From a virus, in the IMG/VR virus record IMGVR_UViG_3300025098_000344, positions 1 through 20,937 of that record: a stretch of DNA of 20,937 bases; one strand, 5' to 3'. Shown here one piece after another: positions 16,655 through 20,699 of this stretch. The notes under the pieces were generated by a model. The model worked only from the letters and a program-made list of their open reading frames with translations, was not told the origin of the DNA and did no database searches. The translations under genes were made by a program, and so were the position numbers. Positions within the stretch are counted from its first letter, which is position 1, and every line of letters begins with the position of its first letter.

Positions 16655-16908
16655 CGTTGGCTTCTTTTTAATATTTGTTGTTCTAATTCATATTTATCTT
16701 TTTCAAATGCTAAGTGCATTAAACAGGTGTGTAGTTTTGATTTGGTAATTTGATTGTATTTGAGAATGTCTCCATTAGTAAGTCCGTAGATAGATTGATA
16801 CCAGCCCCATTTTGCAGAGAATCCCGCAGATGCTGAGGAAGCTCTACCTCCTTCTGAGTTGCTAAATAATTCAGGATAGTTTTCTGTAATTCGTTCTTTA
16901 AACTGTAA
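16651..16908 (-). CDS. -1 frame extension of the tail assembly chaperone (frameshift product)
   Basis: An 85-codon frame overlapping the end of the 223-aa gene, in the -1 frame. It has no ATG, GTG or TTG until codon 64, so it cannot be a normal gene, but it is protein-like: RITENYPELFSNSEGG, then KWGWYQSIYGLTNGDILKYN, then CLMHLAFEKDKYELEQQILK. The WGWY...L..GD...LxFEKDK pattern is what I recall at the end of tail assembly chaperones. Its codons end mostly in A/T like the rest of the genome, whereas the overlapping zero frame has many CTG, CAG and GAG codons. A -1 slip on the T9 run at 16907-16915 joins it to residues 1-161, giving a 246-aa protein. Its stop overlaps the next gene's ATG. A homopolymer indel would give the same product without recoding. 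Confidence 0.72.
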   Translation of the reverse strand, partial: LQFKERITENYPELFSNSEGGRASSASAGFSAKWGWYQSIYGLTNGDILKYNQITKSKLHTCLMHLAFEKDKYELEQQILKRSQR

Positions 16909-17390
16909 AAAAAAACAATAGCACCAAATACAATATCTAAAGTAACTTCTGTCATATCGTACTTTTCAGCACTTTCATATTCTTCTATTAAATACTGCTT
17001 CTTCTTCTTGTAGGTTATTGGCCTATATAAAACACCTATTGCTTTGTTCATTAAATCCCAATCAGCAAGGTAAGTATCTAAATCAACATATTCACCAAAT
17101 GAAATATCATCCAGCTTTGGTATAAATCCAAACTCTTTATCATTTAAAGTAAACCTATCTATAAACTTAGGTTCGTTATTAAATAACTTTGATAGCTCTT
17201 CGCAGATATTGTTTATATCAGTAGCTTTTATTTGTAATACTTGTTTAAGTGGTATATTACAAAATATCTCTACCATCTTTTGTTGTAGAAACGAATCCAG
17301 TTCTTTACCCTCAGCAATCTTTAACCACTTTTGATATTGCTTTAAAGTAACCTCATTAAGAGTTTCTGGTATGTTGATTGTTAGTTTCAT
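16719..17390 (-). CDS. Tail assembly chaperone, zero-frame product
   Basis: The 223-residue zero-frame product of a tail assembly chaperone gene. The first 160 residues look like a conserved domain (INIPETLNEVTLKQYQKWL, then FGFIPKLDDISFGEYVDLD, then MNKAIGVLYRPI, then TLDIVFGAIVFF). Chaperones of this kind (lambda G/GT type) keep the tape measure soluble and recruit tube protein, with short and frameshifted long forms in a set ratio. After F161, frame zero continues NELQKTILNYLATQKEVELPQ..., ending TPV at 16719; this end has atypical codons and local GC enrichment, consistent with dual coding. It is the first gene after a terminator and a conserved leader motif, with ATG only 3 nt from that motif. 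Confidence 0.68.
   Translation of the reverse strand: MKLTINIPETLNEVTLKQYQKWLKIAEGKELDSFLQQKMVEIFCNIPLKQVLQIKATDINNICEELSKLFNNEPKFIDRFTLNDKEFGFIPKLDDISFGEYVDLDTYLADWDLMNKAIGVLYRPITYKKKKQYLIEEYESAEKYDMTEVTLDIVFGAIVFFYSLKNELQKTILNYLATQKEVELPQHLRDSLQNGAGINLSTDLLMETFSNTIKLPNQNYTPV
16907..16916 (-). other. T9 slippery run, candidate -1 frameshift site
   Basis: On the minus strand G followed by nine T's then AC is read GTT TTT TTT TAC (residues 159-162). It contains the heptamer T TTT TTT, a classic slip site. A -1 slip here opens the 85-codon extension. Polymerase slippage adding one base to the run would have the same effect. It is the only heptamer of suitable form I found in the overlap. Confidence 0.65.
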
Positions 17391-17406: not shown

Positions 17407-17433
17407 AATTAGTAAATCGTTATATACAAATAT

Positions 17434-17473
17434 AAAAAAAAGTAGGCAATGCTCTTTTGCAAATACCTACTTT
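17434..17473 (-). terminator. Intrinsic terminator upstream of the tail operon
   Basis: On the minus strand AAAGTAGG pairs with CCTACTTT (8 bp), enclosing a loop that can form a short inner CAA/TTG stem, followed by a run of eight T's. It should stop anything read into this region from the right, isolating the tail operon from upstream transcription. Confidence 0.8.
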
Positions 17474-17517: not shown

Positions 17518-17570
17518 CAGAAAGTTATTTTTAAATTACAATCAAATATAATAAAAATTTCTCTTATATA

Positions 17571-17590
17571 TCTTATCTTTTCTTATCTTA
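17571..17590. repeat. Two tandem 10-bp repeats TCTTATCTT(T/A)
   Basis: TCTTATCTTT and TCTTATCTTA follow directly on each other, then TCT; a related TCTTATATA precedes them. The 10-bp period equals one helical turn. They lie in the noncoding stretch between the two terminators. A protein-binding site is possible; simple-sequence drift is equally possible. Confidence 0.4.
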
Positions 17591-17621
17591 TCTAAATGCT
17601 TAAGGGTGGCTTAAGCGTGGC

Positions 17622-17650
17622 TATAAAAAAAGCCACTTTTTACGGTGGCT
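17622..17650 (-). terminator. Intrinsic terminator after the 42-aa gene
   Basis: On the minus strand AGCCAC pairs with GTGGCT (8-nt loop), followed by seven T's, 25 nt after the 42-aa stop. A further GTGGCT copy at 17617-17622 lets the same DNA form an overlapping hairpin followed by five T's on the plus strand, so it could act in both directions. Confidence 0.85.
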
Positions 17651-17674
17651 CTTTATTCTGTGTTTTTTAATATT

Positions 17675-17803
17675 TTATTTAAATGCTTTTGCAAATTCTT
17701 TTACTTCTTCGTAAGTCCATCCCGCTTCTTTTAGTATTATATCTTCTTCTTTAATCATTTCGTTTAATAATTCGCTGTTTAATATTTCGTTTATGTTTTT
17801 CAT
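17675..17803 (-). CDS. 42-aa acidic small protein in its own transcription unit
   Basis: ATG at 17803 opens 42 codons: MKNINEILNSELLNEMIKEE, then DIILKEAGWTYEEVKEFAKAFK. The product is acidic and helical, with a Trp-Thr-Tyr turn between two amphipathic helices. I do not recognise a family. The unit is complete: a promoter ends 28 nt before the ATG and an intrinsic terminator starts 25 nt after the stop. No Shine-Dalgarno site is present, only an A-rich leader, as is normal in Bacteroidota. Being transcribed apart from the terminase and tail operons, it may be expressed at a different time, for example as a host-directed or regulatory peptide. It could also be a minor remnant ORF, though the flanking signals argue against this. 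Confidence 0.7.
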   Translation of the reverse strand: MKNINEILNSELLNEMIKEEDIILKEAGWTYEEVKEFAKAFK

Positions 17804-17831
17804 TTTGTTTTGGTTTTTGTTAATTACAATG

Positions 17832-17862
17832 TAAATATAAGTATAATTATTTAACTAACAAA
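17832..17862 (-). promoter_or_regulatory. Bacteroidota-type promoter for the 42-aa gene
   Basis: On the minus strand TTTG (17862-17859) is followed after exactly 19 bp by TATATTTA (17839-17832), against the known consensus TTTG / 19-21 bp / TAnnTTTG; only the last base differs. Transcription would begin near 17825, about 22 nt before the ATG. Confidence 0.7.
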
Positions 17863-17865
17863 TTA

Positions 17866-17877
17866 TTTTACAACTTT
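17866..17877 (-). promoter_or_regulatory. 12-bp motif AAAGTTGTAAAA upstream of the 42-aa promoter
   Basis: This 12-mer is identical to the one before the scaffold gene (8650-8661) and lies 3 bp upstream of the TTTG box. A related AATTGTAAAA sits next to it, so TTGTAAAA occurs twice in tandem here. It is a candidate operator or activator site. The remaining bases up to the terminase stop at 17914 hold nothing else that I can support. Confidence 0.3.
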
Positions 17878-17913
17878 TTTACAATTTTTTTTATTCTACC
17901 TCTGTAATTTTTT

Positions 17914-19125
17914 TTAATAAATGTGATATTCTCCTAAGTTTGGATTCTGTAATTGATAGCTAACTGCATACCTCAGCGCATCAATAGCGTGGTTAAAATT
18001 ATCAACTGGTGTTTGTGATTTCTTTTCTAACCAACAATAGTTATTTAACTCTTTAATTAATTCTGTACTATCTTCAGTAATTACTAAATCATAATCTTGT
18101 AATAAACTAATACCAAATGTTATTGAACCTTGTCCTTTGATAGCTGGTACAACATTACAATCTCTGCTTAGTTCTGTTATTAATCTTGGTTCTGCTGAAT
18201 CACCAACTATTAAATTATCTGCTGCAAACTTTTTATTAAGTTGTAATATCTCGCTTGTAGTTAACTTAGTTTGGTAAAAGCATAGTTGTATATAGATAAC
18301 TTTATTTTCTTTGTCTATACTTGTTTTAACTAATGTGCTTGGGTCATTGCTAAATCCATAATCTTGACCAAATACAACTTTACCTACTTGCTTAAATTCT
18401 CCTATACTCCAATCAGTAAATATAACACCCTCAGCTTTGTCCAGCCAAGCACCTTCTATTGTATGCTTGTATCTGTTTGGTCTTCTAACCTTCATTGTCT
18501 CTATCTGCTTAATATAGCTTTCTGAAAGGTTATCTAAGTTATCTAAATATGTAGTGTGTATATAGGTAGTATCTTCTTTAGTTATGTTACTACCAGCAGC
18601 AACACCCCTATCTTCAAACCAACGTTTATAAATGAAATGTTCTTTAGTTGTAGGATTCAATATTAATATTACTCTATTCTCTTGTACTTTGTTTCTTACA
18701 GATAAATCAATCTTATCAAATATATCCTCATCATTTAATTCTTCTGCTTCATCCATTACCCAAGTAGTAATACCTTGTAATGATTTAAGATTTGCTGTCT
18801 GGTCTCCTGAGCTGGTTTTAATACCTCTAAATATTATCTTACTACCATTGCCTTTATTTATTATCTCATCCTTTGTTATTTTAAACTGGTCGATAACTCC
18901 AAGCAGTTCTAACTTTTCTATAAATTCAGGTATGATTGAAATGCCAGCAGCTCTTAGAGTGTACCTTGTAAATAGTATTGTATGGCCAGCTTGATAGGTT
19001 AATAGTAGAAGTACAGAGTTTATAGCAAATGATTTACCAGAACCTCTACCACCAGTTACAATAAAATAACGTGAAAGTGATTCGTTAAATACTAAATACT
19101 TTTTATTGAGCTTTAATCCTTGCAA
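17914..19125 (-). CDS. terL: Large terminase subunit (ATPase and nuclease)
   Basis: The motor that packages DNA into the capsid through the portal and cuts the concatemer. The 403-residue protein has a Walker A GGRGSGKS (residues 25-32), Walker B TTWVMDEAEE with D125 and E126, and a coupling motif LILNPTT (153-159). The C-terminal RNase H-like nuclease has its metal-binding acidic residues in GQDYGF (D255), VGDSAE (D309) and NHAIDALRYA (D382). Length and motif spacing fit the PBSX-like terminase family (Terminase_3 and its C-terminal domain). The start overlaps the small subunit gene by 23 nt. The gene ends 52 nt before the promoter of the 42-aa unit and has no terminator of its own, so read-through would reach the terminator at 17622. 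Confidence 0.95.
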   Translation of the reverse strand: MQGLKLNKKYLVFNESLSRYFIVTGGRGSGKSFAINSVLLLLTYQAGHTILFTRYTLRAAGISIIPEFIEKLELLGVIDQFKITKDEIINKGNGSKIIFRGIKTSSGDQTANLKSLQGITTWVMDEAEELNDEDIFDKIDLSVRNKVQENRVILILNPTTKEHFIYKRWFEDRGVAAGSNITKEDTTYIHTTYLDNLDNLSESYIKQIETMKVRRPNRYKHTIEGAWLDKAEGVIFTDWSIGEFKQVGKVVFGQDYGFSNDPSTLVKTSIDKENKVIYIQLCFYQTKLTTSEILQLNKKFAADNLIVGDSAEPRLITELSRDCNVVPAIKGQGSITFGISLLQDYDLVITEDSTELIKELNNYCWLEKKSQTPVDNFNHAIDALRYAVSYQLQNPNLGEYHIY

Positions 19126-19491: not shown

Positions 19492-19869
19492 TCAATTGCT
19501 TTTGCTTTCTCTTTCGTATTCATATTCATTATATAATCTTCTCATTGTATCTACTAAACCTTTAACGCAACTACCACAACTGGATGCTTTTTTATTGGTG
19601 TTAAATACTCTATTGTGTATTGTTAGCAATCCTTTTTGTTCGTTTGCATTTACTACATTCTTTTGCTGGTTAAAGAATCCTTTTAGATATATATATTCTT
19701 CTTCATTTAAACATTCTACTTTGTATGGAAATAATTTATTTAACTTTTCTTTTCTTGCATCACATCCACAATCCTTACCTATCTTGTCAAATATCCAATC
19801 AGTAGCTTGTTTTATACCTGTGGCTTTTGTTATCTTTTCTACTGTATCGCCTAAACCTTTACTCTTCAT
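19492..19869 (-). CDS. Conserved phage protein with two Cys pairs, function unknown
   Basis: This 125-residue protein opens with MKSKGLGDTVEKITKATGIK and then DCGCDARKEKLNKLFPY, with C34 and C36. A second pair, SSCGSCVKGL (C98 and C101), lies near the helical C-terminus (VDTMRRLYNEYEYERE). CxC plus CxxC could form one metal site. I recall this GLGDT...CGCxxRKxKLNxLFPY pattern near terminase genes of Bacteroidota phages, always without a function. The start overlaps the sigma-like gene by 11 nt and the stop is 50 nt before terS, so it belongs to the terminase transcript. Confidence 0.75.
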   Translation of the reverse strand: MKSKGLGDTVEKITKATGIKQATDWIFDKIGKDCGCDARKEKLNKLFPYKVECLNEEEYIYLKGFFNQQKNVVNANEQKGLLTIHNRVFNTNKKASSCGSCVKGLVDTMRRLYNEYEYERESKSN

Positions 19870-20368
19870 TAATTTTTTTTTTAATTTCTTTAATACAATT
19901 ATTTATAGTTCTCCATACAACTACGTGTGATATATTAGTTGCTGCAGATAGTTTTCTTATACTGTGGAATTTCTTTCTATATAAGTTAAATAACTTTCTA
20001 TCAAACCAATAGAATTCATTTACTATATCATCTACTACTTTTTCTATATCTACATACTTTGTATTGTCTGCTTCTATAATGTTTTTTAGGTCTTTATCTA
20101 TTAGTAAATCTTTATCAACTCGTATTGTATCAATGAATATATTGTGCATCATCTTATATATAAACGCTTTATTTAAAGAATCGTTATATAGAATATCGTT
20201 AATTTTTACTTTTTTACTATCAATTTTACTATGTAAAGCAATATAAAAGTCGTGTAATAAATCTTTTGCTGGTATTTTACTATTGCTGCTTATTTCCTCA
20301 GCCATACTTAGCCAAGTTTCTTCATCTCTTACCAAGAGGTGCAATATATTATTTACTTCTGTACTCAT
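19859..20368 (-). CDS. Sigma-70-like DNA-binding protein (phage transcription regulator)
   Basis: A 169-residue protein with a sigma-like two-part plan. Residues 36-85 resemble region 2 (KDLLHDFYIALHSK, then AFIYKMMHNIFIDTIR), which binds the -10/-7 box and core polymerase. Residues about 120-165 resemble region 4, with a helix-turn-helix (KFHSIRKLSAATNISHVVVW, then RTINNCIKEIKKKI), which contacts the upstream box. The linker is acidic. It is shorter and more divergent than host sigma factors, as in phage-encoded ones, and may be a terminase-linked regulator rather than a true sigma. It overlaps the nuclease gene by 20 nt and the next gene by 11 nt. A link to the ACGTTTATAG motif is speculation. 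Confidence 0.65.
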   Translation of the reverse strand: MSTEVNNILHLLVRDEETWLSMAEEISSNSKIPAKDLLHDFYIALHSKIDSKKVKINDILYNDSLNKAFIYKMMHNIFIDTIRVDKDLLIDKDLKNIIEADNTKYVDIEKVVDDIVNEFYWFDRKLFNLYRKKFHSIRKLSAATNISHVVVWRTINNCIKEIKKKINEE

Positions 20369-20699
20369 CTAATTCAAGAAGTATATTTACGAAATCATCG
20401 TATTTTAAAGCAATGTAATCGTCTTCAAAGTTTTTAGTAAATACTACTACAGGAGTTTTTAGTGTACCTCTTGCATCTCCTTTGCTTTGTTCTAATGCTT
20501 TCCATATATTAAGTTTCTCTTGGTTCTTACATTCCCAGCTATATTCAGATAGTATACCACTTGTAGTCATAATATCTCCTTTAATACTCAATCCGCCTGA
20601 GTTTGGTGTTCTTCTTATATTAGTATCAAACTTTTTAGCTAAATCTTTTGCAATTTTTAACTCAAACCTTTTACCTTTTTGATTTGCATTTAAACTCAT
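20349..20699 (-). CDS. PD-(D/E)XK nuclease, Holliday-junction-resolvase-like
   Basis: A 116-residue protein with the nuclease core: E13 in KGKRFELKIAKDL, D42 in SIKGDI, and E56-x-K58 in YSWECKNQ, then a helix with KALEQSKGDARG. The order E ... GD ... ExK and the length fit the archaeal Hjc-like and phage VRR-type small endonucleases. The RRTPNSGGLS segment would be the DNA-contact loop. Candidate roles are resolving branched DNA before packaging or trimming recombination intermediates, in keeping with its position in the packaging operon. All predicted metal-binding residues are present. Its ATG overlaps the stop of the upstream 54-aa gene (ATGA). Confidence 0.78.
   Translation of the reverse strand: MSLNANQKGKRFELKIAKDLAKKFDTNIRRTPNSGGLSIKGDIMTTSGILSEYSWECKNQEKLNIWKALEQSKGDARGTLKTPVVVFTKNFEDDYIALKYDDFVNILLELDEYRSK

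Follow-up and report, generated by a model that had tools for sequence, protein, structure and literature searches.

Why should a phage keep a short gene with expression signals of its own between its packaging and its structural genes? The window analysed here, the whole 20,937 bp of an uncultivated virus record (30.5% GC), carries these genes in a single long minus-strand array (820–20860), and the biggest gap in this array is the 523-bp interval between terL and a gene for a protein of 223 aa. Within the interval lies an ORF of 42 codons, which the initial annotation had described as a self-contained unit. The gene on one side (17914–19125, minus strand) can be assigned with certainty to TerL by its Pfam matches (PF04466, E 6.1e-36; PF17288, E 5.8e-19). 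The gene on the other side (16719–17390, minus strand) matches PHROG 32199, a PHROG of unknown function, and the Pfam search found no domain in it; the name 'chaperone' that it had been given is unsupported. The nearest isolates by TerL are the Nonlabens phages P12024L (52.9% aa) and P12024S (52.6% aa), and the host would therefore very likely be a marine flavobacterium. The phage group of the window very likely comprises virulent-type phages of Bacteroidota, with marine Flavobacteriia as hosts.

Two other genes of the window deserve mention. A 169-aa protein (19859–20368, minus strand) is weakly similar to a phage RNA polymerase sigma factor (PHROG 1740, E 0.0039), the P12024L gene at the corresponding place being annotated as containing Sigma-70 region 2; judged by this similarity it may control late genes. 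A PDDEXK_15/RusA-like Holliday junction resolvase-like protein (20349–20699, minus strand) adjoins the packaging genes.

Related loci were collected by IMG/VR scans with TerL and with the next gene, and 139 loci hold both. The interval between these two anchors measures 40–1543 bp, and still about 120 to 1543 bp among loci with TerL at least 94% identical. L087 lacks exactly 291 bp of the window (17623–17913, minus strand), although its terL (99.8% aa), its next gene (99.1% aa) and the flanking DNA (93.7–96.9%) are nearly the same. Alignment with this empty slot delimits the whole inserted cassette, which begins directly after the terL stop codon and ends in ...GTGGCTTTTTTTAT. Empty slots read TAT TGA AGCC (some TAT TAA AGCC) and filled ones TAT TAA, cargo, TAT AGCC, so that the left junction always lies immediately behind the final sense codon of TerL. 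The AGCC...GATAAG flank divides the slot into two sub-sites, of which site 1 precedes and site 2 follows it. Site 1 holds the window's cassette and, in other loci, methyltransferases. In L059/L060/L089/L090 the window's 42-aa cassette occupies site 1 and another cassette site 2, and the slots of L115 and L175 are double as well. As 40 of 92 slots are empty, the cargo is dispensable. The alignments show three slot states: empty, singly filled or stacked. Comparison of this interval in related phages, as the initial annotation had suggested, thus revealed a hypervariable cargo slot with the window's cassette as one content state; the self-contained unit is confirmed, but its interchangeable nature, as one of many, had been missed.

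Read along the minus strand, the slot of the window consists of AAAAAATTACAGAGGTAGAATAAAA..., promoter, leader, 42-codon ORF, terminator, the flank AGCCACGCTTAAGCCACCCTTAAGCATTTAGATAAGATAAG... and a second hairpin leading into TATATTTG. The promoter, TTTG-N19-TATATTTA (17832–17862), is assigned to the sigma-A type by sequence match and from the relatives. It agrees with the Bacteroidota consensus TTTG/TANNTTTG (PMC6847099) at 9 of 10 positions, which bears out the near-perfect promoter claimed earlier, and the perfect form TTTG-N19-TATATTTG is present in the relatives L084, L088, L091 and L100. The predicted +1 lies at about 17827, close to the 17825 given before. The A-rich leader GTAATTAACAAAAACCAAAACAAA (24 nt, 17804–17827), common to cassettes with unrelated ORFs, has an A at −3 and contains no Shine-Dalgarno sequence; Kozak-like A-rich initiation has been described in Flavobacterium (PMC6847099), and a flavobacterial start-site map exists (PMC9723704). 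The cargo ORF (17675–17803, translation MKNINEILNSELLNEMIKEEDIILKEAGWTYEEVKEFAKAFK) was found as annotated, its ATG 59 nt after TTTG in a range of 52–70 nt across cassettes. The intrinsic terminator also held up: the hairpin and T-run GAGCCACCGTAAAAAGTGGCTTTTTTT at 17652–17624 is of the site-1 type common to other cassettes, and AAGAGCCACCGTAAAAAGTGGCTTTTTTTA folds at −12.4 kcal/mol (z −3.0).

The flank that divides site 1 from site 2, AGCCACGCTTAAGCCACCCTTAAGCATTTAGATAAGATAAGAAAAGATAAG... (17564–17622), stands directly after terL in empty slots; it consists of the inverted repeat GCTTAAG-N5-CTTAAGC followed by GATAA/GAAAA repeats. It is conserved in all empty slots, also in the distant phages L051–L055. 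The right border (17427–17470, fold z −3.3) is formed by the hairpin GTAGGTATTTGCAAAAGAGCATTGCCTAC and a T-run into the −7 element TATATTTG, and is conserved where the structural operon begins, so that this operon also starts behind a perfect −7 element.

Could such a unit have arisen by chance? The promoter string alone is not above expectation, since the window has 5 gene-strand matches at 9 of 10 positions or better where 8.4 are expected, and was therefore not used as proof. A scan with the E. coli-type sigma-70 consensus, the wrong promoter type for these hosts, gave matches at or below chance and was discarded. In the 218-kb Chryseobacterium phage MA9V-2, the stretch 30886–30947 is 84% identical to the window's promoter and leader over 64 nt. 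Homology was rejected as the explanation, the gene behind it being unrelated; we keep the likeness as a sign of what would be a general strong flavobacterial start. By length, the chance of an ORF of at least 42 aa in an interval like this one is P = 0.045, which is borderline. The codon usage of the ORF scores +8.3 bits against a null of −15.4 ± 6.5 (fraction at or above, 0.0002); this clearly coding-like usage supports a translated gene. Base composition sets the insert apart (22.0% GC, against 31.1% for terL and 31.4% for the next gene), yet the ORF with 25.6% reaches only the 8th percentile of 129-nt CDS windows. The comparative evidence settles the matter: the same promoter and leader stand ahead of at least 32 unrelated ORF families. 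Moreover, the only other carriers of the 42-aa gene, L059/L060/L089/L090 (two contigs, terL 83%), are 100% DNA-identical over the whole ORF, and the frame-disrupting changes in relatives that the initial annotation had named as evidence against the gene were not found. On these comparisons the promoter–ORF–terminator unit on the minus strand is confirmed as real.

The cargo comprises 47 distinct proteins (42–112 aa) that fall into 32 families at E 1e-3. Over 1053 between-family pairs, promoter and leader are on average 81.5% identical over 45 nt, whereas the first ORF codons reach 39%. Two kinds of terminator occur, GAGCCACCGTAAAAAGTGGCTTTTTTT at site 1 and GAGCTACTGTAACAGGTAGCTTTTTTTT at site 2; a simple pattern finds them in 39 of 52 occupied slots, and the 13 without this motif are mostly methyltransferase and MazG-like slots. 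The recognisable cargo consists of an N6 DNA methyltransferase (PF01555, E 2.4e-34) and a MazG-like pyrophosphohydrolase (PHROG 2245, E 2e-6); the other families gave no match of clear known function. At first sight the slot might be a dump for AT-rich DNA and ORFans that break no operon and bring the phage no benefit, as its many empty states, the low GC of the insert relative to the window and the scarcity of recognisable functions would allow. Neutral filler does not, however, explain why promoter, leader and mostly the terminator stay intact around changing ORFs, why each genome has a single slot, or why methyltransferases recur. The repeated families F0–F3, too, remain open reading frames in divergent phages. 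We consider this explanation quite improbable. Of 24 relatives' genomes of 28–32 kb, 12 contain the cassette promoter a single time and none contains it twice.

Slot methyltransferases were seen in L005, L024, L028, L086, L091, L096, L113, L142, L143 (intervals) and L172, with a start some 6 nt behind the terL stop codon. Their ends are conserved and their middle varies strongly, those of phages with TerL about 30% identical included; this middle is presumably the target-recognition part, and its variation possibly a swap of methylation specificity. A further element of about 30 nt, GAGGCAGCCGA...AGCGTAAGTCCTC, is conserved at site 2 between the cargo stop codon and the terminator (L100, L040, L039, L088, L017 and others). 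Its outer stem varies from GAGG/CCTC to GAGC/GCTC and it is not in Rfam; by its sequence it is possibly a structured 3' UTR element or a recombination anchor.

Not all cargo encodes protein. At six loci (L020:5205–5660, L014:2240–2705, L012, L141:3180–3620, L143:4640–5080 and L142:5434–5874) the gene between cassette promoter and terminator is replaced by a conserved, ORF-free element of about 430 nt. It folds with z −3.46 relative to shuffles and has 6 compensated pairs, is present in both promoter contexts, and is matched in seven contigs by a pattern scan. These loci raise the question whether the window's own unit is mainly a small-RNA gene with an incidental ORF. Against this, the window has an ATG at the cargo start position, codon usage that is coding-like, and a leader as A-rich as those of translated genes; comparison of the window, the 430-nt cargo and the 3' element with Rfam returned only terminator-like chance matches. 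An RNA gene in the window is thus very improbable.

Turnover was computed on a TerL tree of 92 distinct rows. Slot content falls into 28 states with at least 45 changes. The sister of the window, L084 (SH-aLRT 97), carries a different cargo, and close neighbours on the tree hold a methyltransferase plus another cargo (L005), a methyltransferase (L086) or nothing (L087). The second carriers of the window's cargo (L090 and copies) sit in a distant clade with TerL at 83%. The promoter pattern matched 53 viral stretches, among them phages with TerL at only about a 30% match in which the cassette again lies just behind terL; in L157/L161 (TerL 29% match) the MKNLNL cargo is nearly unchanged. The alignments therefore show that cargo moves even where the TerL proteins of two phages differ by 70%. 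In a second explanation, the 42-aa protein is a phage-internal regulator of packaging or late transcription. Its place at the border of terL and the structural operon, which starts directly after the slot, would suit such a role, as would a small, acidic protein predicted to be helical. A regulator that is needed would be conserved, however. That close relatives have nothing in the slot, and others unrelated proteins or RNA, argues against this reading; we regard it as improbable.

How, then, is the cargo exchanged? The MKYFWNH family occurs in L034 and L017 and the MKNLNL family in L115, L092 and L084, so that one and the same cargo can follow promoters of different types and occupy either site. 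This is what recombination through shared borders would leave. We propose that genes are replaced by homologous recombination between co-infecting phages, anchored in the conserved promoter and leader on one side and in the terminator and flank or the right border on the other. The phage's RecE-like exonuclease may help: a RecE/exonuclease VIII homologue is present in the relative G011 (PHROG 412, E 4.5e-45), and the window encodes the Holliday junction resolvase-like protein mentioned above; the search for recombination genes found no ERF or YqaJ recombinases. The constant left junction might instead point to a self-mobile element that enters by site-specific integration or transposition at the terL stop codon. 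The small cassettes, however, contain no integrase- or transposase-sized ORF, no target duplication was seen, and a second site exists behind the flank block. In addition, the hybrid promoter and hybrid flanks of L092 suggest crossing-over within the shared AT-rich block. Self-mobility is accordingly given very little probability. Taken as a whole, the model of an accessory-gene cassette in a dedicated cargo slot behind terL is highly probable; the insert boundaries, the turnover, the transfer and a constant expression frame in which the gene is replaced are each shown by the alignments.

With regard to expression, the sequence signals suggest that the host sigma-A RNA polymerase would transcribe the cassette directly, in which case the cargo could be made without phage factors. 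Translation initiation would be A-rich and free of Shine-Dalgarno pairing, and the terminator would insulate the cassette from the structural operon. The cassette may also have the separate timing or level of expression proposed in the initial annotation, although the structural operon likewise has a perfect −7 element at its start.

The 42-aa protein itself is acidic (pI 4.6, charge −4.5) and predicted to be helical at low confidence; its AlphaFold model is weak (pLDDT 68.5, pTM 0.35). Pfam, PHROGs, PADLOC, NCBIfam and 50,697 phages (including tblastn) contained no homologue, and a degenerate GWTYEEVKEF pattern found no match in 84,980 genomes. The best matches in the PDB were generic helices, without any known small-protein family by sequence similarity. 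In these searches it had no homologue outside this phage group. In view of the frequently empty slots and of content that changes within near-identical backbones, the cargo would be of use under certain conditions, most likely when the phage faces particular hosts or rivals; a cargo useful only on some hosts would be gained and lost quickly. The earlier idea of an accessory, host-directed or anti-defence unit is favoured in part by the discrete insert, the fast-turnover slot, the host sigma-A-type promoter and the recognisable slot contents. Candidates for cargo with a known defence or counter-defence function are limited to the methyltransferases and MazG-like proteins, PADLOC 2023 covering defence systems and not most counter-defence proteins. 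Within the cassette model we lean towards a host- or rival-directed 42-aa protein, taking counter-defence, exclusion and takeover together, and such an acidic helical protein would most likely act as a small inhibitor by binding to a protein of the host or of a rival phage.

Among known systems, the cassette resembles the PeSLs, the composite promoter–stem-loop motifs described as mediating gene shuffling in T4-like phages (Arbiol 2010 and Comeau 2014, cited in PMC4503421) and thought, according to the same source, to supply homology for recombination. As far as PMC4503421 describes them, both have a conserved host-like promoter and a stem-loop terminator bordering genes that are exchanged between related phages, and the cassette promoter, by sequence of the host sigma-A type, may be an early host-polymerase promoter like that of PeSLs. 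In contrast to the many PeSL copies along a large myovirus genome, there is here one slot per 30-kb genome, behind terL, and the cassettes differ from the PeSLs of that account in their Bacteroidota sigma-A promoter, their RNA cargo and their exchange at TerL about 30% identical. Like the morons of lambdoid and Mu-like phages (PMC4378225), the cassette surrounds one coding region with promoter and terminator signals of its own, is an insert that parts two genes which are neighbours in relatives (L087 empty, window filled), and has a lower GC content than its surroundings. Unlike in morons, where they come with each gene, promoter and terminator are common to many cargos. None of 24 near-complete relatives has a tyrosine integrase, which makes lysogenic expression unlikely; in structure the cassette is a moron, though probably not of the lysogenic-conversion kind. 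The anti-phage hotspots of P2-like phages and P4 satellites (PMC9122126) are likewise small fast-turnover loci between two conserved genes, but they span 1–5 kb, carry validated defence systems and belong to temperate phages and satellites, whereas the slot spans 0–1.5 kb and holds mostly 42–112-aa ORFs of unknown function. Nonlabens phages P12024L/S share the gene order around terL and a related right anchor gene (30% aa), yet in them terL abuts the next gene, with no slot and no cassette.

The cargo of this moron-like, PeSL-like exchange cassette probably serves counter-defence, exclusion or host takeover. In the widest form of the proposal, which we hold with evenly divided confidence, the slot is a standardised cargo dock, one per genome with fixed promoter–leader and terminator. 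By way of this dock, marine Bacteroidota phages from two or more TerL lineages would draw on a common stock of over 30 small-protein families and structured RNAs. Most members of this stock, including the 42-aa protein, would be undescribed factors for counter-defence, exclusion or host takeover. The exchange cassette occurs in tiny genomes without the PeSL density of the T4 type, and offers a natural experiment on single-gene exchange, with a constant expression frame and variable content of RNA and protein. Since two anchor genes and a promoter string suffice to read the slot in any virome contig, it provides a catalogue of probable host- or rival-directed genes and a list of clonable candidates for counter-defence genes of flavobacterial phages.
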